From a virus: a DNA stretch of 55,042 nt. The notes beneath the pieces are model-generated. The model was not told the origin of the DNA. It ran no database searches and saw only the letters and a program-made list of their open reading frames with translations. The DNA lies in the IMG/VR virus record IMGVR_UViG_3300046820_000403, positions 1 to 55,042 of that record; one strand, 5' to 3'. Position numbers and translations under genes: made by a program. Of this stretch, positions 10,281-23,938 are shown in pieces. How positions within the stretch are numbered: position 1 is the first letter of the stretch; every line of letters begins with the position of its first letter.

Positions 10281-10890
10281 AATAACAGGATTGATTATTG
10301 TTGGACTTGTAGGCTTTATATTTTTTAATAGAGGTTGCGAGAAAGGATCACAAGCTAAAGGACCTGATACATTAGTTGTACACGATACTACTTGGCAGAT
10401 ACATGATAAGACAATCGTTAAAGAAGTACCTATTCTTAAAGAAATACCAGTACCACACGAAGTACTCATAAAGACGTACCAAGCTGATACTAATTATCCT
10501 GTACTGAAGAAACAATACGAAGAGCTTGCTAAGAAATATGCATCTCGTCGTATCTATAAAGATTCAGTGAAGGTGGGCACACATGGTTATATTGAAGTGG
10601 TAGATACAGTGAGTGAGAACAAGTTGGGCAAGCGCACTACCAAGGATAACTTCAAGATCCCTATTGTAAAGGAAACTATGACAATAACCAAATATGCAGA
10701 ACCAACAAGACAGCTCTATGTGGGCGGTGGTATTAACAACTCTTCCCTTACTAATTTTAGAAGTGTGGAGGCAGGTGTACTATACAAGACAAAGAAAGAT
10801 CAAATCTTTGGAGGAAAAGTAAATGTTAATGTGGATGGGTCTATCACCTACGGTGTACAGTCCTATTGGAAAATCAAAATGAAGAAGTAA
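10270..10890 (+). CDS. Membrane-anchored envelope protein, spanin-like candidate
   Basis: 206 residues. One N-terminal transmembrane helix (ITGLIIVGLVGFIFF, about residues 4-18) is followed by a periplasmic part with beta-rich, charged stretches (TLVVHDTTWQIHDKTIVKEV) and a C-terminal region in which alternating residues suggest beta strands (RQLYVGGGINNSSLTNFRS, VNVNVDGSITYGVQSYW). An inner-membrane anchor with a periplasm-spanning body between holin and endolysin genes fits a spanin or envelope-bridging role. Bacteroidota phages carry similar membrane proteins of unknown function here. The ATG at 10270 is the one nearest the upstream stop. Confidence 0.5.
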   Translation: MKDKITGLIIVGLVGFIFFNRGCEKGSQAKGPDTLVVHDTTWQIHDKTIVKEVPILKEIPVPHEVLIKTYQADTNYPVLKKQYEELAKKYASRRIYKDSVKVGTHGYIEVVDTVSENKLGKRTTKDNFKIPIVKETMTITKYAEPTRQLYVGGGINNSSLTNFRSVEAGVLYKTKKDQIFGGKVNVNVDGSITYGVQSYWKIKMKK

Positions 10891-11018
10891 TGAAATTCTT
10901 AGACTTTTTAAAATCGTTATTGTGGACTCCTAAGTCTGTAGAGCAAGTGGTAGAACCAGAGTTGAAAGGTGAAGCTGTAGTGGTTAAGAAGAAAGCGCCT
11001 GCTAAAAAGAAGAAATAG
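10890..11018 (+). CDS. Tiny amphipathic, lysine-tailed protein
   Basis: 42 residues: an amphipathic N-terminus (MKFLDFLKSLLW), an acidic/valine middle and the end KKKAPAKKKK. The start overlaps the upstream stop (TAATG) and the stop is followed directly by the endolysin ATG, so it is translated with the lysis genes. The lysine tail resembles those of the tiny proteins at 22-23.8 kb. Function unknown; membrane association of the N-terminal helix is plausible. Confidence 0.6.
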   Translation: MKFLDFLKSLLWTPKSVEQVVEPELKGEAVVVKKKAPAKKKK

Positions 11019-11903
11019 ATGTCAACATTGCGTAGAGGTGATGAAGGTCCGCTGGTAACCAAGCTCCAAGAGAAGCTAGGGGTGGATCCTATTGGTAAGT
11101 TTGGACCTAAGACAGAGACTGCTCTTAAAGAATGGCAAACTGCTAATGGTCTACAAGCTGACGGTATAGCTGGTCCTTTTACACTAGCTAAGCTAGGTAT
11201 TGAGGCTCTTCCTCAAGCTCCTGTAATAACACTTCCAAATATTACTTCATCTACACATACAGCTGTAGTACCAAACCCCGTAGCTGTTCCTGATAACTCA
11301 GGATTCAAACTAGATAAACTTAAAGGACATATTCCTGATGCAGTGATTGCACAGATACCTGATACAGCTGCAAGGTTTAACATCACTAATGCACTACGCC
11401 TGGCCCACTTCTTGTCACAATGTGGACATGAGAGTGGTAGCTGGAAAGCTGTACGTGAGAACTTAAACTATTCAGCTAAGGGACTGATGGGAATCTTCAA
11501 GAAGTATTTCCCTACAGCAACATTAGCTACAGCATATGAAAGACAACCTGAAAAAATTGCTAACCGTGTGTACGCTAGTCGTATGGGTAATGGCAACGAG
11601 AACTCTGGAGATGGATATAAGTTTAGAGGACGGGGATATATCCAACTAACAGGTAAAGAAAACTACACAAGATTTGACGCTACAGTTCCTGAAAGTATTG
11701 TGAACGATCCTGATCTTGTAGCTACAAAGTATCCACTAGCGTCTGCTGCATTCTTCTTTAATAGCAATAAGCTATGGGCTATATGTGACAAAGGTGCTAC
11801 GCCTGAAGTAGTGACAGCTGTAACCAAACGAGTTAATGGTGGAACCATTGGCTTAGCAGACCGTGTAAAACATTTTAATGAATATTATAAACTACTAGTA
11901 TAA
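11019..11903 (+). CDS. Endolysin: PG-binding domain plus GH19-type muramidase/chitinase
   Basis: 294 residues. Residues 1-60 are a PG_binding_1 domain (LRRGDEGPLVTKLQEKLG, GKFGPKTETALKEWQ, DGIAGPFTL). A Pro-rich linker leads to a GH19-type catalytic domain from about residue 95, with the candidate catalytic Glu138 in SQCGHESGSW and the family block YKFRGRGYIQLTGKENY at about 200-216. There is no signal peptide, so it needs the holin for export. It should cut the glycan backbone of peptidoglycan during lysis. Very secure on domain evidence. Confidence 0.95.
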   Translation: MSTLRRGDEGPLVTKLQEKLGVDPIGKFGPKTETALKEWQTANGLQADGIAGPFTLAKLGIEALPQAPVITLPNITSSTHTAVVPNPVAVPDNSGFKLDKLKGHIPDAVIAQIPDTAARFNITNALRLAHFLSQCGHESGSWKAVRENLNYSAKGLMGIFKKYFPTATLATAYERQPEKIANRVYASRMGNGNENSGDGYKFRGRGYIQLTGKENYTRFDATVPESIVNDPDLVATKYPLASAAFFFNSNKLWAICDKGATPEVVTAVTKRVNGGTIGLADRVKHFNEYYKLLV

Positions 11904-12034
11904 TGGCAAAGGCAAAAGGCTCCGCAGAATCTAAGAAGATTGTATTTGGTGTAAGACGTAAAGGTAAGCATCAGAAATCATTTGGCCCCAAGGCTACACC
12001 AACTAAAAAGAAATACAGAGGACAGGGAAGGTAA
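11903..12034 (+). CDS. Tiny basic protein
   Basis: 43 residues (MAKAKGSAESKKIVFGVRRK, then GKHQKSFGPK and a Lys/Arg-rich end). The start overlaps the endolysin stop (TAATG) and the stop codon sits in the loop of a terminator hairpin, so it is the last gene of the lysis transcript. Its composition matches the tiny basic proteins near 22-23.8 kb. Nucleic-acid or virion binding is a guess from charge only. Confidence 0.65.
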   Translation: MAKAKGSAESKKIVFGVRRKGKHQKSFGPKATPTKKKYRGQGR

Positions 12035-12065: not shown

Positions 12066-12581
12066 ATGAAACTATTCAAAATCACCTATGCAATTGTCTC
12101 GATGATTGTAGGATCATCAATGATGATTCAAGCTGTATACATCTACAGACATTTCTTTCCTACAGAACCAATCACTGTAGCTTCTGTAGAGAACAAGATA
12201 GTGATAGGTCAATTAGCAGGCAGTCGTAATCTTGCATTTGGTGTGAAGAACATCACAGAAGAATTCTTGCAAGAGCAAGGATATGAAGTGACAGATGATT
12301 CACACAAGAAGATAAAGATAGAACTTCTATACCTAGATGTATTAAAGACACAAGCAAGCTTGTCTGTATTCCATCGTAACTCAGATGCTGTAGTGATACG
12401 CATGAGAGGACAGCTTATAGAAGATGATAAAGTTAAAAAGACTGCAGTGGTAGAAGAGTCTGCAAAAGAAGTATCAATGGCTACCGTGGTTATAGACCAG
12501 GGTGGTAAGTTTAATCAAACCAACCTTAGTACAGCTTTAAAAAAATCATGTAACACTCTAATAACTAAGCTCTTGAAATGA
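12066..12581 (+). CDS. Membrane-anchored periplasmic protein, CsgG-like fold candidate
   Basis: 171 residues. An N-terminal hydrophobic anchor or uncleaved signal (about 5-30) is followed by an alpha/beta domain: LAFGVKNITEEFLQEQGYEV, then IELLYLDVLKTQASLSVF, DAVVIRMRGQLIEDDK and an end of NLSTALKKSCNTLITKLLK. The first and last blocks parallel those of the CsgG-like protein at 15018, suggesting the same fold. The start follows the leader AAACCAAACCACT right after the lysis terminator. It is the first gene of a seven-gene envelope operon. Function unknown. Confidence 0.55.
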   Translation: MKLFKITYAIVSMIVGSSMMIQAVYIYRHFFPTEPITVASVENKIVIGQLAGSRNLAFGVKNITEEFLQEQGYEVTDDSHKKIKIELLYLDVLKTQASLSVFHRNSDAVVIRMRGQLIEDDKVKKTAVVEESAKEVSMATVVIDQGGKFNQTNLSTALKKSCNTLITKLLK

Positions 12582-14302
12582 AAAAACTACTGCTTCTAGT
12601 TCTAACCCTAATAACATTTAATACTCTTGCTCAGGACGTCAAGTTAAAACTTGGTTCTGATTCAACTAAAGTTGATATTAATGGTGGAGTGATTGATAAA
12701 GGAGATGACTTTATTGTTCCTGTACTATTAAACGGTAATGCAAACACGACAGCTCGTGCTTTGTATTTTGATTTCGAATTCAATAATGCCGCATTCACAT
12801 TCGTTAGTGTAAATCATACAGGAACAGGTGGTAATGGTGGTGTGCTTCCTCCAGGTGCATCTATTACGATGACTAACTATACGTATCCTGGATACTCATT
12901 TGCAACTAACGCAAACAACACAACTACAAATGGTAATGCTAACTACAATGCTGCAGCGTACAATTATACACAAGGTGGTCCTAAGACTATCATTCGTGTG
13001 TATTTAAACTGGGCAACTAATAGTCCTCTACCATATAACAACTATAGTACATTATTGAATCTACGATTCACATTGAAGGCTAATGCTGTAGGAGATTCTT
13101 GGGATCCAATCAAGATGAACTTTGCCGCTGTGTTCAATGCAAACGGTGGTAGTGGATCTACACTAATGGAGATTCCTCTCACAACAGTGATTACACAGAA
13201 CCCTGATGCTAAGAAGTATGTAAAGGCTAATGTAGACCTAGGTGCTAACATTAATCCTGCTTACATGAAGGTAGCATTCCTTAAGCAAGATAATACAGGA
13301 CCATTGTTTAATGTTACATCTACAGGTGCTGTAAACATTGTTGACTCTTTACTTACAGCTAATACACAGTATAGGATAATGGCAATGTATAACATGGATC
13401 AGTTATACAACTTATATAATGCTGCTGTCACGGTCTCTGACTATACATCTGCACAGGCAGAGTTTATATCTCAGAACCTAGATGGTACATTTAAGAACAC
13501 AACAATTGTTACTGGTGCAGGATATAAAGCAGCTGATGTCAATCGTAATGATAAACTAGATGGTGGTGACCTTGTTAAACTATTTGCTCAGGCAGTGAAT
13601 GTTAATCAACTAGTAGTGCTACCTACAGGATACACAGTTGGATCTAATGGACATATGAGTTTGATGACATTTAAAGGAGCTACATTTGATGCTGCTACTC
13701 CTGCTGATTGGGCTACGTTGTTCCCAGGTAATACACAGCCTGTTTATACATTCACTACGCCACCTACGCCAGGTACGCCATCTACTATTACTATCAAGTA
13801 TTTAATTGATGGAGACATTAATCGTTCTATGTCATCTAACGTTGTACGAAGTGGTAGTGTTGTAGCAAATAGAACATTGGCTAAGAACAATGTAACAGTT
13901 AACTTAAAGAACACTGTAGTTACATCTAACAAGGTGGACATCCCCGTAGCTATTAATACTAATGGAGAGAATGTATCTGGACTACAGTTCCAGTTTGAAT
14001 ATGATAAGACAAAGATTAAGTTTGAGGAGTTAGTTAATGAGATGCCTAATACATGGTATGTGTTTGCTAACAATGCAGACGGTATAATTAAGTTTGGCGC
14101 AGTGGATAAGGATCTGAAGACTCCTATATCAGGACAATCAATTCCTTTCAAAGTGAGATTCTCCACTCTACAGAATGGATTGGACATCAACACTTACATC
14201 AAGGTGAGCCCTATTATGGACGCAGCTTCTAAAGATGGTTCACAGTTGGGGATTGACTTGAGTACAGATGTAATCAAGCTTACAGGATACAATAACTTTT
14301 AA
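12578..14302 (+). CDS. Secreted cohesin/dockerin-type protein
   Basis: 574 residues. The signal peptide MKKLLLLVLTLITFNTLAQ ends in an AQ cleavage site usual for Bacteroidota. Residues about 40-205 form a beta-sandwich resembling a cohesin-type domain (FIVPVLLNGN, LYFDFEFNNAAFTFVSV). A dockerin-like calcium loop is at 320-331 (DVNRNDKLDGGD). A second cohesin-like sandwich occupies about 430-555 (VDIPVAINTNGENVSGLQFQ, then GIIKFGAVDK). Cohesins and dockerins normally pair to assemble extracellular complexes; having both in one chain suggests self-assembly or surface attachment. ATGA overlap with the previous gene. Assignments are from motif recognition. Confidence 0.6.
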   Translation: MKKLLLLVLTLITFNTLAQDVKLKLGSDSTKVDINGGVIDKGDDFIVPVLLNGNANTTARALYFDFEFNNAAFTFVSVNHTGTGGNGGVLPPGASITMTNYTYPGYSFATNANNTTTNGNANYNAAAYNYTQGGPKTIIRVYLNWATNSPLPYNNYSTLLNLRFTLKANAVGDSWDPIKMNFAAVFNANGGSGSTLMEIPLTTVITQNPDAKKYVKANVDLGANINPAYMKVAFLKQDNTGPLFNVTSTGAVNIVDSLLTANTQYRIMAMYNMDQLYNLYNAAVTVSDYTSAQAEFISQNLDGTFKNTTIVTGAGYKAADVNRNDKLDGGDLVKLFAQAVNVNQLVVLPTGYTVGSNGHMSLMTFKGATFDAATPADWATLFPGNTQPVYTFTTPPTPGTPSTITIKYLIDGDINRSMSSNVVRSGSVVANRTLAKNNVTVNLKNTVVTSNKVDIPVAINTNGENVSGLQFQFEYDKTKIKFEELVNEMPNTWYVFANNADGIIKFGAVDKDLKTPISGQSIPFKVRFSTLQNGLDINTYIKVSPIMDAASKDGSQLGIDLSTDVIKLTGYNNF

Positions 14303-20205: not shown

Positions 20206-20451
20206 ATGGGACAGCAACTAAATACAAAACTTAAAGCATTCGTTCGTTTTGATGGAACAGGACGTGTAATACCTGGTAGCTTAATCTTACAGAGATTTAA
20301 GCCTAAGGTAGGTAATTGGCAAGAGATCAATGCTACAGAATGTTGCAGTGATATTACTACCACTACAACAACAACAACAGCTCCTGCAACTACGACTACT
20401 ACAACTACTGCAACACCTGTTACTACCACAACTACTACAACTATAGTATAA
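20206..20451 (+). CDS. Small protein with shared head and poly-Thr tail
   Basis: 81 residues. The head (LKAFVRFDGTGRVIPGSLIL, KPKVGNWQEINATECC) duplicates that of the previous gene; from residue 48 it is almost entirely Thr with single Ala, Pro and Val interruptions, encoded by ACA/ACT/ACC runs. The changing third bases show that the Thr run is kept at protein level and is not only a simple DNA repeat. Such a tail suits dense O-glycosylation by the nearby transferase. Its stop overlaps the next ATG. Confidence 0.65.
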   Translation: MGQQLNTKLKAFVRFDGTGRVIPGSLILQRFKPKVGNWQEINATECCSDITTTTTTTTAPATTTTTTTATPVTTTTTTTIV

Positions 20452-20870
20452 TGGCCAAGTCATTGTTTCCACAAGAAATGCTAAGCTCTGCTTCAGGAGA
20501 ACTATCTCCTGATAGCATTGCTACAAAGCTCACATACTTTGAGCTTCAGCTACATAATTTGCATTGGGCTACACGCTCTTATGCAGAACACATGGCTCTT
20601 GGTGGATTGTATGATGCTGTGTTCGATCTTAAAGATGAAATCATTGAGAAGATCATGGGATATACAGGCACTAGAGCAAAGATTGGTAACCCAGGACAGT
20701 TGAAAGAATACTCTCCAGGAGTATCCACAGGAGTTGTATCTGAATTAATGACATTCGCAAAGCAATTAGAAAACTATGGAGCTGGTAATAACATGCCAGA
20801 CATAGAAAACATTGCTCAAGGATTGTCAGGAACTGCAGCTAAGACTAAATACTTATTAACCTTGTCATAA
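20451..20870 (+). CDS. Dps/ferritin-like small protein (DUF5856 type)
   Basis: 139 residues, predicted all-helical. KLTYFELQLHNLHWATRSYA followed by HMALGGLYDAVFDLKDEI is the first-helix signature of Dps-like proteins, with His, Trp and acidic residues at the places where the ferroxidase site forms. The C-terminal helix is shorter than in bacterial Dps. Bacteroidota phages carry this group as DUF5856. Whether it binds iron or DNA is unproven. It is encoded among virion genes, so it might travel in the particle. Confidence 0.65.
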   Translation: MAKSLFPQEMLSSASGELSPDSIATKLTYFELQLHNLHWATRSYAEHMALGGLYDAVFDLKDEIIEKIMGYTGTRAKIGNPGQLKEYSPGVSTGVVSELMTFAKQLENYGAGNNMPDIENIAQGLSGTAAKTKYLLTLS

Positions 20871-21462: not shown

Positions 21463-21480
21463 GCATCTCGTAAGATCTGC
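21463..21480 (+). repeat. 18-bp direct repeat, copy 1
   Basis: GCATCTCGTAAGATCTGC. It differs at one base from the copy at 21618-21635, about 155 bp away, and has short self-complementary ends (GCA/TGC). Confidence 0.75.
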
Positions 21481-21609: not shown

Positions 21610-21650
21610 CCTATGTTGCATCCCGTAAGATCTGCTCATAGGTCTTTTTA
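21610..21650 (+). terminator. Repeat-bearing hairpin with T run (repeat copy 2)
   Basis: CCTATG (21610-21615) pairs with CATAGG (21637-21642) around a loop holding the second repeat copy, GCATCCCGTAAGATCTGC (21618-21635), and is followed by TCTTTTTAGAC. It reads as a terminator but ends only a few bases before the ATG at 21655, so an attenuator role is also possible. Confidence 0.5.
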
Positions 21651-21864: not shown

Positions 21865-22044
21865 ATGTCTTGGAAAAATCATGATGATGGAAGCCTTATA
21901 ACAAATGAGCAACATCAAGCCTTATCTGACCATGATAAAGCAAAGTTTTATGAAACTTCAGAAGAAGTAATTGTAGCATCTCCTAAAAAACAAAAGAATG
22001 GCAAAGCAGTGGATTCAGAAAGCGACAGCATCGATCAAGCGTAG
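21865..22044 (+). CDS. Hypothetical small charged protein
   Basis: 59 residues: MSWKNHDDGSLITNEQHQAL, then DHDKAKFYETSEEVIVASPK and a polar end. Probably helical and mostly soluble. Its last 47 bp overlap the next gene in another frame. No family recognised. Confidence 0.5.
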   Translation: MSWKNHDDGSLITNEQHQALSDHDKAKFYETSEEVIVASPKKQKNGKAVDSESDSIDQA

Positions 22045-22153
22045 AGGTACAGAAGGTAAATGTACACCAATCACTAAGCCTGGATGCACAGGAAGAGCTA
22101 AGGCCCTTGCTAAGACATTCAAGAAGATGGCTGCTAAACGTAAGAAGAAATAA
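21998..22153 (+). CDS. Tiny basic WIQKA-type protein
   Basis: 51 residues: AKQWIQKATASIKRRGTEGK, then CTPITKPGCTGRAKALAKTF and KKMAAKRKKK. The WIQKA start, two Cys and the ALAKTF Lys/Arg tail form a pattern seen in tiny proteins of many tailed phages. It is strongly basic and the stop overlaps the next ATG (TAATG). Packaging or DNA-associated function is inferred from charge alone. Confidence 0.65.
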   Translation: MAKQWIQKATASIKRRGTEGKCTPITKPGCTGRAKALAKTFKKMAAKRKKK

Positions 22154-22308
22154 TGGCAATCACACCTGTACCTAACGGACATCTTATTAAGAAGGATGGA
22201 ACATCATTAAAGAATGGTGGTAAGATAAGCTGCTGGAAAGGCTATGTTAAGAAGGGCACAAAGAAAAAGGGTGGTAGAACAGTTAATAACTGTGTAAAGA
22301 AGAAGTAA
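22153..22308 (+). CDS. Tiny basic cysteine-containing protein
   Basis: 51 residues: AITPVPNGHLIKKDGTSLKN, then SCWKGYVKKGTKKKGGRTVN and NCVKKK. The CWKGY...KGTKKK..R.VNNCVKK arrangement with two Cys recurs in tiny phage proteins. TAATG overlaps at both ends tie it into the array. Function unknown. Confidence 0.65.
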   Translation: MAITPVPNGHLIKKDGTSLKNGGKISCWKGYVKKGTKKKGGRTVNNCVKKK

Positions 22309-22421
22309 TGAAGAAGGATGCATTCAGTAAGGTAAAGAAGTCCATGAAGGCTCCTAAGCAGAAGTTCTGGATGGACAAGGTAAAGAAAGATTTATCTAAG
22401 GTTCAACCTAAAAAGAAATAA
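22308..22421 (+). CDS. Tiny lysine-rich peptide
   Basis: 37 residues (KKDAFSKVKKSMKAPKQKFW, then MDKVKKDLSKVQPKKK), nearly half Lys or Arg and probably helical. Both ends overlap neighbours (TAATG), which supports real translation despite the short length. Function unknown. Confidence 0.6.
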   Translation: MKKDAFSKVKKSMKAPKQKFWMDKVKKDLSKVQPKKK

Positions 22422-22846
22422 TGAATATTAAAGAATTTGATATGGGAAAGTATATCTTACTAGTAGGTAAGGATGCTACTGACATATTCAAATACTATAA
22501 GGTTAAAGAAATGCATGGGCTTAATCTTAAAGATGCCCAAGCAGAAGAGGTTGATAAGACAAAGGGTAATGGAGTGTACATCTATGGATTAACAAACTAC
22601 GATCCTGCAGATAAGAAACTTACAGCCAAAGACCCTTATAAGCCCTTCTTGTTCTTAAACATGGGGACGTTTAAAAGATACAGTGCTGATGAACAAAAGA
22701 CAGCTATTATGCATGAAACAATGCACGTAGCTCTTCTCTTGTACAAATGGGATGCTGAGAAGAAAGCAGAAGAGATAGTAACTATGGCTGAGGATGAGGC
22801 CAATAAGATTATTAGAAAACTTAAAGGAATTAAACTTATAAAATAA
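22421..22846 (+). CDS. HExxH-motif protein, putative metallopeptidase
   Basis: 141 residues. The centre, KTAIMHETMHVALLLY, contains a zincin-type HExxH (HETMH) in a helix flanked by hydrophobic residues, as in metallopeptidases. A beta-rich N-terminal part (YILLVGKDATDIF, GVYIYGLTNYDP) precedes it and an acidic helix follows (EEIVTMAEDEANKIIRKL), which could supply the third zinc ligand. It is the only enzyme-like gene in an array of tiny basic proteins, translationally coupled on both sides. Processing of those proteins or of head proteins is speculation. Confidence 0.55.
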   Translation: MNIKEFDMGKYILLVGKDATDIFKYYKVKEMHGLNLKDAQAEEVDKTKGNGVYIYGLTNYDPADKKLTAKDPYKPFLFLNMGTFKRYSADEQKTAIMHETMHVALLLYKWDAEKKAEEIVTMAEDEANKIIRKLKGIKLIK

Positions 22847-23100
22847 TGGCAAAGTCTCCAGCATGGCAACGTAAAGAAGGCAAGAGCGCTTCTGGTGGCC
22901 TCAACGCAAAAGGTAGGGCATCCTACAATAGAGCTAACCCAGGTAAGCCTGGTCTTAAAGCTCCACAACCTGAAGGCGGTCCTCGCAAGAAATCATTCTG
23001 TGCTAGGATGTCAGGTATGAAAAAGAAACTTACTAGCTCTAAGACAGCTAACGATCCTAATTCTCGTATCAATAAATCTCTACGTAAGTGGAAGTGCTAA
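22846..23100 (+). CDS. DUF6321-like small basic protein
   Basis: 84 residues: AKSPAWQRKEGKSASGGLNA, KGRASYNRANPGKPGLKAPQ and a C-terminal PRKKSFCARMSGMKKKL with NSRINKSLRKWKC. The SPAWQRKEGK...GGLN.KGRASYNRANPG block is the DUF6321 signature, found in many marine and Bacteroidota phages. Strongly basic. Function not established; association with DNA or the capsid is inferred. Confidence 0.75.
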   Translation: MAKSPAWQRKEGKSASGGLNAKGRASYNRANPGKPGLKAPQPEGGPRKKSFCARMSGMKKKLTSSKTANDPNSRINKSLRKWKC

Positions 23101-23111
23101 ACTAATATACT

Positions 23112-23267
23112 ATGGCAAAGCAAATGATTAAACGTGCTGATGGTTCAACATCACAACGCGGATTGTGGGATAACATCCGTGCTAATAAAGGTTCAGGTAA
23201 GAAGCCTACAGCTGAGATGTTAAAACAAGAAAGAAAAATTAAAGCTAACACTAAAAAGAAGAAATAA
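23112..23267 (+). CDS. Tiny lysine-rich protein
   Basis: 51 residues: AKQMIKRADGSTSQRGLWDN, then IRANKGSGKKPTAEMLKQER and KIKANTKKKK. The same Lys-run ending occurs in its neighbours. The stop overlaps the following ATG. Function unknown. Confidence 0.6.
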   Translation: MAKQMIKRADGSTSQRGLWDNIRANKGSGKKPTAEMLKQERKIKANTKKKK

Positions 23268-23713
23268 TGGGCAAAGATAAAGTAGCTGCAGGAGTAAAAG
23301 GCAAGTCTCCTAAAGCAGGGATGGTAGATCCTAAAGGTGCTTGGACAAAAGTTCAAGAGCGTACACTTGCTAAGAATGGTATGATGATGAAGCCTAAAGG
23401 TAAAGGATTACCTCCAGCAGGTAAGCAACGTCCTGTAGACTTTGAACCTAAGTCTAAGTTTCCTGTTACAAAAGGTGGTGGAGATAACTACGATGAGACT
23501 ATGAAGCGTGAGAAAGAACTTAAGGCAAAAGGTATGATGAAGATGGGTGGTAAGATGAAGAAAGCAAAAGACGGTACAGCATTTGGTATGTTGTCAGTTA
23601 AAGCTGGTATTGATAAGAACCCTAACCCTACAGCTGCTGATCGTATTGCAGGTGCTAAAAAGATGGCTAAGTCTGGCGCATCTATGAAGAAGTGTCGTTA
23701 TGGCTGCAAGTAA
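23267..23713 (+). CDS. Basic Gly/Lys-rich protein
   Basis: 148 residues, low in hydrophobics, rich in Lys, Gly and Met: GKDKVAAGVKGKSPKAGMVD, MMMKPKGKGLPPAGKQRP, and MMKMGGKMKKAKDG in the middle. It ends KSGASMKKCRYGCK with two Cys. Probably disordered, as expected of a nucleic-acid-binding or internal virion protein. Largest of the basic set. Function unknown. Confidence 0.6.
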   Translation: MGKDKVAAGVKGKSPKAGMVDPKGAWTKVQERTLAKNGMMMKPKGKGLPPAGKQRPVDFEPKSKFPVTKGGGDNYDETMKREKELKAKGMMKMGGKMKKAKDGTAFGMLSVKAGIDKNPNPTAADRIAGAKKMAKSGASMKKCRYGCK

Positions 23714-23870
23714 TATGACTGCTGGCAAAGCTAAGAAATCTGGCAAGCCACGCAACGCACCTAAGGTAAATAACCCTAATCCTAAAGGAAACTTTATGAG
23801 AGAGGCTGACGTACCGTCAAGGCTCAAGAGCCCTATGTGGCCCATGAAACAAAAAAGATTAAGTAAATAA
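23700..23870 (+). CDS. Tiny basic protein, last of the array
   Basis: 56 residues: AASNMTAGKAKKSGKPRNAP, then KVNNPNPKGNFMREADVPSR and PMWPMKQKRLSK. It overlaps the previous gene by 14 bp (ATG at 23700; a second ATG five codons later is also possible). The terminator follows about 40 bp downstream. Function unknown. Confidence 0.55.
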   Translation: MAASNMTAGKAKKSGKPRNAPKVNNPNPKGNFMREADVPSRLKSPMWPMKQKRLSK

Positions 23871-23907: not shown

Positions 23908-23938
23908 AAAAAGGCTCCTCATGGGAGCCCTTTTTCTT
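23908..23938. terminator. Strong bidirectional terminator
   Basis: GGCTCC (23913-23918) pairs with GGAGCC (23924-23929) around a 5-nt loop, with an A run on the left and CTTTTTCTTTA on the right. It serves the converging + strand array and - strand sugar cluster. Confidence 0.85.

Follow-up and report, generated by a model that had tools for sequence, protein, structure and literature searches.

The window analysed here, meaning the whole stretch of 55,042 bases of IMG/VR virus record IMGVR_UViG_3300046820_000403, contains an array of nine short open reading frames (ORFs), g1 to g9, at 21865-23870 on the plus strand (Table 1). As a set, its basic mini-proteins are genuine, modular and under constraint. 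A preliminary description, made from the letters of the DNA, had counted nine genes in 2 kb with eight below 90 residues; nine ORFs are present, and seven fall below 90 residues. Its statement that the genes are mostly joined by overlaps stands for seven of the eight junctions, with a gap of 11 nt between g6 and g7. Five junctions (g2/g3, g3/g4, g4/g5, g5/g6 and g7/g8) are 1-nt overlaps of the form TAATG, and the overlaps at g1/g2 and g8/g9 are 47 and 14 nt long. By eye, start sites in the window are A/T-rich upstream with no clear Shine-Dalgarno sequence, as in phages of Bacteroidetes, which makes translational re-initiation across the array junctions plausible. At several of the array junctions, the genes of the related contigs L008, L011 and L015 are separated by 1-4 nt.

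Table 1. Features of the array and of its surroundings in the window (pI, isoelectric point; dN/dS, ratio of non-synonymous to synonymous substitution rates in comparison with relatives).
Feature	Position	Strand	Remarks
g1, 59 aa, acidic, pI 4.9	21865..22044	+	shared only by the identical L007; membership doubtful
g2, 51 aa, WIQKA type	21998..22153	+	6 loci; dN/dS 0.06-0.18; WIQKA profile link 83%
g3, 51 aa, CWKGY module	22153..22308	+	phrog_4359, 9.2e-9; dN/dS 0.015-0.03
g4, 37 aa, 41% Lys	22308..22421	+	fused with first half of g3 in L011
g5, 141 aa, HExxH motif	22421..22846	+	only in window, L007 and L012; dN/dS 0.05
g6, 84 aa, DUF6321	22846..23100	+	Pfam PF19846, 3e-19, over cut-off; dN/dS 0.07-0.11
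g7, 51 aa, GLWDNI module	23112..23267	+	8 loci; dN/dS 0.13-0.14
g8, 148 aa, modules DPKGAWTKVQ and a second ending in two Cys	23267..23713	+	10 loci; dN/dS 0.27-0.57
g9, 56 aa, basic	23700..23870	+	10 loci; dN/dS 0.11 and 0.22, two of four pairs saturated
Weak spanin match	9662	+	late block
Small Lys-tailed gene	10890..11018	+	ends KKKAPAKKKK; between gene ending at 10890 and endolysin
Endolysin	11019	+	phrog_181, 3.3e-65
Small basic gene, 43 aa	11903..12034	+	ends YRGQGR
Cohesin-domain protein	12578-14302		late block; cohesin domain 5.9e-8
Collagen-repeat protein		+	late block
DUF5856/phrog_858 protein	20451-20870	+	about 1 kb 5' of array
18-base repeat GCATCYCGTAAGATCTGC, two copies	21463-21480, 21618-21635	+	gap upstream of array
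g0, 65 aa	21655..21852	+	directly upstream of array; 6 loci including window
Terminator-like hairpin	23913..23929	+	3' of array; 7-pair stem, T-rich tail; consensus match only

Seven of the nine predicted proteins are strongly basic (pI 10.2-11.6), g5 is slightly basic, and the net charges from g1 to g9 are -5, +16, +13, +12, +3, +19, +12, +24 and +12. Lysine and arginine together make up 25% of the array, compared with 12% of the 39 other genes of the window, and g2, g3, g6 and g8 have two cysteines each, the remaining five none. The claim that most of the proteins end in lysine runs was too broad: g2, g3, g4 and g7 finish with at least three lysines and the other five do not. At least three lysines or arginines nevertheless occur among the last five residues of 6/9 array proteins, compared with 5/39 for the other genes of the window, and the basic character of the tails exceeds that expected from the composition of the proteins that carry them (0/20,000 permutations). 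Such tails might be a by-product of translation, with purine-rich codons before the stop serving the start codon of the next gene, as the A-rich upstream sequences and junctions like AAGAAGAAATAATG would suggest. We regard this as very improbable, given that g9 keeps a basic tail with no following gene on its strand, that relatives of g7 keep KKK at other spacings, and that basic residues throughout the proteins would be left unexplained.

Relatives of g8 are encoded on nine IMG/VR contigs, one of which, L007, is identical to the window in the array genes. Conservation of gene order, proposed earlier as a check, was borne out: in L008/L010, L011, L012 and L015 the shared genes follow the order g2-g3-g6-g7-g8-g9, as far as each contig contains and covers them, with some gene swaps. 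In L008 and L011 the first module of g8 stands as a separate gene, g7 forms the end of a longer protein in L008, and L015 has an additional gene between g2 and g3. Values of dN/dS against the window were well below 1 (Table 1); this comparison, named in the preliminary description as a possible refutation, did not refute it. Given its distribution, g5 is best seen as a probable accessory insertion, and the membership of g1 in the set is doubtful. A PHROG label of HNH endonuclease for g5 (2.9e-4) was set aside, since g5 has no Pfam match, and PADLOC gave no match for any of the nine genes.

The preliminary description had also assigned some of the genes to phage mini-protein types. For g6 this was confirmed by Pfam (69.9 bits against a DUF6321 cut-off of 28.5) and for g3, the CWKGY type, by PHROGs, in which five families besides phrog_4359 matched below 1e-4; g2, the WIQKA type, matched neither Pfam nor PHROGs and is tied to its family by the profile link in Table 1. 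A tblastn search of phages with g2 and g3 found no match, probably an effect of the low-complexity filter, by which Lys-rich queries are masked. After removal of copies more than 93% identical, 66 DUF6321 sequences besides that of the window were available; the final alignment has 63 rows including the window, with g6 first and with L023, L044, L127 (which has an X) and L120 omitted. Nine residues are invariant across these 63 sequences (G18, G23, R24, P40, R47, F51, R54, R74 and W82). From the alignment, DUF6321 is predicted to form four helices (predicted local distance difference test score, pLDDT, 90; predicted template modelling score, pTM, 0.72), for which no relative was found in the PDB by sequence or by fold; the clear viral matches to the predicted structure are DUF6321 proteins where they are named, one being called 'Virion protein'. 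The model of g2 is poor (pLDDT 65.7, pTM 0.32). The GenBank name 'RecA-like recombination protein' on the DUF6321 genes of MinM2 (L004:6001-6246) and Greip (L005:3876-4127) was rejected, as Pfam gives only DUF6321 for g6, and it is probably a mislabel copied between records. In the open-licence literature we found no mention of DUF6321 and, in a broader search, no description of this module set; DUF5872 appears there in a gene-table entry of a single paper.

The WIQKA module provides a connection to a characterised protein, SSV1 VP2, which is described as a virion DNA-binding protein. Proteins of the WIQKA family from the contigs match Pfam Fusello_VP2 (PF25632) weakly (8/21 at E <= 1, best 0.0034, below the cut-off), and because 5/14 ordinary control genomes also match at E <= 1 these matches were not trusted alone, so that ORF9 of Thermus phage IN93 was needed. 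The WIQKA profile matches IN93 ORF9 at 9e-10 (35.4 bits), and in profile comparison ORF9 has a probability of 97% both to WIQKA and to VP2, compared with 0.1% for a control comparison of DUF6321 with VP2. When SSV1 itself was searched with the WIQKA profile, VP2 was the only ORF below E 1 (2.6e-4); its 15.6 bits lie above 2,000 shuffles (9.4 bits), and 1/1,000 other shuffles reached 12.9 bits. By these comparisons the WIQKA family is homologous to IN93 ORF9 and, through ORF9, to SSV1 VP2. The link of g2 itself to the WIQKA family appears moderate: g2 is the only one of 1,011 ORFs in the window found by the WIQKA profile at E up to 1, 1/2,000 shuffles scores as high, and against Pfam Fusello_VP2 it gave no match and did not reach the cut-off. 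Homologues of VP2 are reported from unrelated viruses, and the same source gives deletion of vp2 as without effect, with vp2 listed elsewhere as apparently essential (PMC9608457). In a freshwater contig (L078:4416-4712), a dockerin-like stretch (0.029, below the cut-off) is fused to a WIQKA module.

The modules of the array belong to a wider pool. DUF6321 was present in 549 of 50,697 phage records, mostly of Synechococcus, Prochlorococcus and Pelagibacter phages; in viral contigs at least 597 matches were confirmed of 600 candidates, from which the best 80 (85-96% identity) were sampled, and contigs of prokaryote genomes, most of them metagenome bins, contributed 37 further loci. Among 105 dereplicated DUF6321 loci, 77 have a further mini-module within 3 kb and 49 have at least three such modules; because most module seeds were taken from loci later counted, these figures describe recurrence and not an independent rate. 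All 369 of 369 module matches lie on the strand of DUF6321 (reversed decoys gave 0), and modules share one reading frame in many combinations. Thus a GLWDNI stretch is fused to DUF6321 in P-SSM7 and a GPGTYG stretch in S-RIP2, and CWKGY and DUF6321 lie within one T4-GC 119 protein in S-SM1 and S-E7, which indicates that modules serve either as tiny separate genes or as beads on one chain. These regularities bear on the possibility that the proteins have no common function and come from unrelated small genes gathered at a hypervariable spot where late operons end. The patchy occurrence of g5, the restriction of g1 to an identical contig and the variation of module sets between loci would fit such a spot; what makes it improbable is the repeated joint occurrence of the modules on one strand and their fusion with each other in one reading frame. 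SKKQHNF, another mini-module, often adjoins DUF6321 in freshwater contigs. It was also seen in phiKZ 165.1 (84% identity over 43 residues; L138:4001-4177), in gp51 of Klebsiella phage Eowyn, which is labelled 'structural protein' (L139:3001-3159), and in BUCT555 between the terminase and major capsid genes (L140:4001-4159).

The larger plus-strand neighbours of the DUF6321 loci were surveyed with the five close relatives of the window omitted, minus-strand neighbours (12 upstream, 27 downstream) dropped as likely shadow ORFs, and the downstream ORFs of L027 and L040 added by hand. Upstream, these included major head families phrog_371 (6/75) and phrog_267 (2/75) together with endolysin and baseplate families. 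Downstream, the unnamed family phrog_12985, whose displayed member also has a weak match to a tail-protein family, accounted for 26/60 and the terminase large subunit phrog_2 for 6/60, with virion structural and major head families among the others. In named phages the DUF6321 gene lies between the major capsid gene and gp11 (P-SCSP1c), near the capsid gene (HTVC115P), after the holin (MinM2) or between gp16 and gp17 (S-SM1). Connector genes are also among those that often adjoin the modules. Positions adjoining the major capsid gene or separating the two terminase genes, found in several phages, would also suit proteins that help prohead assembly or DNA packaging, as scaffold or as cofactors of terminase or portal, and leave only traces in the virion; the low peptide counts of the scaffold protein and prohead protease of S-CREM2, which resemble those of the module proteins, point the same way. 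We consider this distinctly unlikely, as other loci lie beside lysis or tail genes and the modules are absent from many tailed phages.

Three cyanomyoviruses with published virion mass spectrometry were searched in six frames for modules of the types found in the window. In S-CREM2, ORF137 contains DUF6321 (Pfam 3.5e-10, over the cut-off) and ORF160 contains CWKGY, and both are on the virion list (Table 3 of PMC10665884), with 4 unique peptides (4.1% coverage) and 7 (13.1%), respectively. In S-SZBM1, protein 139 carries CWKGY and is listed with 4 peptides (10.5%; Table 1 of PMC9146016). In S-SCSM1, for which 45 proteins were detected (PMC9602691) and 48 are marked in the GenBank record by our count, SSCSM1_29 contains both CWKGY and DUF6321 and is labelled 'virion protein' in GenBank. 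Four of the five proteins with CWKGY or DUF6321 (ORF137, ORF160, 139 and S-SCSM1_29) are therefore on the virion side across the three phages, compared with background detection of 52/219, 30/218 and 45/282 (P ~0.004, with proteins treated as independent and no control for length); the denominator 219 for S-CREM2 is 221 record features less two tRNAs seen in the consulted part of the record. For DUF6321 proteins alone the count is 2/3, with S-CREM2 listed, S-SCSM1 labelled and S-SZBM1 not listed.

Several observations weigh against a virion location for the array proteins. The DUF6321 protein 192 of S-SZBM1 and the modular protein 194 (707 aa) are not on its virion list, and their neighbours 190 and 195 are (PMC9146016); the status of S-SCSM1_29 is that of its GenBank label, and Syn9 gp114, which has DUF6321, bears no structural label. 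Coverage of S-CREM2 ORF137 is only 4.1%, and its peptides may fall outside the DUF6321 part. The S-CREM2 list includes the nuclease Cas9, and its authors warn of carry-over for regulatory proteins (PMC10665884). The modules of these cyanophages reside in larger proteins instead of tiny genes, WIQKA and GLWDNI profiles match nothing in six frames of the S-CREM2, S-SZBM1 and S-SCSM1 genomes, g2 does not match VP2 directly (7.6%), and 28/105 DUF6321 loci have no further module within 3 kb. Late proteins that attach, inside the infected cell, to the ribosome or to nucleic acid of phage or host, for example in replication or packaging, and reach virion preparations only by carry-over would account for the missing S-SZBM1 protein and for the presence of Cas9 and a kinase on the S-CREM2 list, and strong conservation of exact residues (nine invariant columns in 63 sequences) suits a specific partner. 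We take such a role to be unlikely but deserving of serious attention, in view of the four of five module-bearing proteins on virion lists and of the frequent location of the genes among head, packaging and tail genes. Each of g2, g3, g4, g6 and g7 would yield 0-4 tryptic peptides of 7-30 residues, so that most of them would escape ordinary tryptic mass spectrometry; this may explain why they have been overlooked. A term search of the cryo-electron microscopy paper on P-SCSP1u (PMC10575957) yielded nothing. SSZBM1_194 (L100:2502-4625), which lies beside the DUF6321 gene, matches Pfam S-AdoMet_lyase (6.8e-8, over the cut-off) and, at its start, weakly DUF3008; a reading of delivery based on the lyase match was dropped, as protein 194 is not on the virion list.

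Taken together, we give a probability of about 0.5 to the interpretation that the array proteins are late, basic virion proteins associated with DNA, like SSV1 VP2 or the internal proteins of T4. The end of the late gene block would then encode several small, strongly basic proteins whose mini-modules are interchangeable and come from a pool common to many tailed phages. Like VP2, these proteins would be part of the virion and lie alongside the packaged DNA; like T4 internal proteins, they may follow it into the cell. We infer that they are packaged in this phage and touch DNA, and likewise what they are for, either to neutralise part of the charge or to be delivered so that they protect DNA or act on it. 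The one joint function proposed in the preliminary description gains indirect support in this form because of the shared strand, the late-gene neighbours, the module fusions, the cyanophage virion lists and the homology of WIQKA to VP2; g1 and g5 do not fit it, and the S-SZBM1 data speak against it for DUF6321. As a rough estimate, one copy each of g2-g4 and g6-g9 would carry a total charge of +108, so that about 360 copies, the number given for T4 internal proteins (PMC9026906), might offset about one third of the phosphates in a 55-kb genome, which has 110,000 of them.

Among known systems, SSV1 VP2 and IN93 ORF9 resemble the WIQKA family in being small and very basic and in opening with W-[IV]-Q-x-A; in contrast to VP2, g2 falls short of the Pfam family, has no direct match to VP2 and sits in a row of several modules. 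The T4 proteins IPI, IPII and IPIII are likewise small internal proteins of several kinds per phage; a T4 head contains about 360 copies of each, which are ejected together with the DNA (PMC9026906). No sequence relation to them is claimed, and their conservation is poor where that of DUF6321 is strong. T4-GC 119 of cyanomyoviruses (S-SM1 SSM1_115, S-E7, Syn9 gp114 and S-SCSM1_29) contains DUF6321, as does g6, and in S-SM1, S-E7 and S-SCSM1 also the CWKGY module of g3, but as one long string of beads instead of separate tiny genes. In pelagiphage HTVC033P and the T7-like cyanophages P-SCSP1c and S-RIP2, small Lys-rich genes adjoin DUF6321, including a GLYANI type; these rows differ from the array in having partly other modules and in their phage lineages and hosts, and in S-RIP2 the DUF6321 and GLYANI ORFs are somewhat longer. 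It is possible, although doubtful, that the interchangeable modules form a viral nucleoprotein kit carried in the virion by several phage families, encoded either in rows of tiny genes or in one protein built like a string of beads. Such a kit would range from tailed phages of the sea and of fresh water to jumbo phages like phiKZ and, by way of the VP2-like module, to archaeal and bacterial viruses that are not tailed phages. Hundreds of sequenced aquatic phages carry DUF6321 and its companions as proteins without known function; what were hypothetical proteins become one shuffled set, with two modules on published virion lists and a third grouped with a DNA-binding virion protein, and with one testable question, whether the set is carried with the DNA and what it does there.

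In the window, late-type genes fill the plus strand from about 9.6 to 23.9 kb, and the array closes this block, followed by the terminator-like hairpin and convergent genes of the minus strand, which encodes, among others, a UvsX-like recombinase, RIIA/RIIB-like proteins, a primase and a helicase. L008 and L011 likewise have proteins resembling the DUF5856/phrog_858 protein upstream of their arrays. The gene g0 is retained in close relatives, yet lacks the character of a basic module, and the repeat GCATCYCGTAAGATCTGC had 2 matches compared with 0.01 expected by chance. Tails similar to those of the array had been reported at 10890 and 11903. These are the positions at which two small genes start, and only the first of the two has a comparable lysine tail (Table 1); the genes ending at 10890 and 11903 finish in KIKMKK and YYKLLV, respectively. 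The ATG at 10890 was our choice of start, where the ORF tool lists a TTG at 10866. The second gene, at 11903-12034, has no Pfam match and by eye resembles a small gene of Greip (L005:3056-3193).

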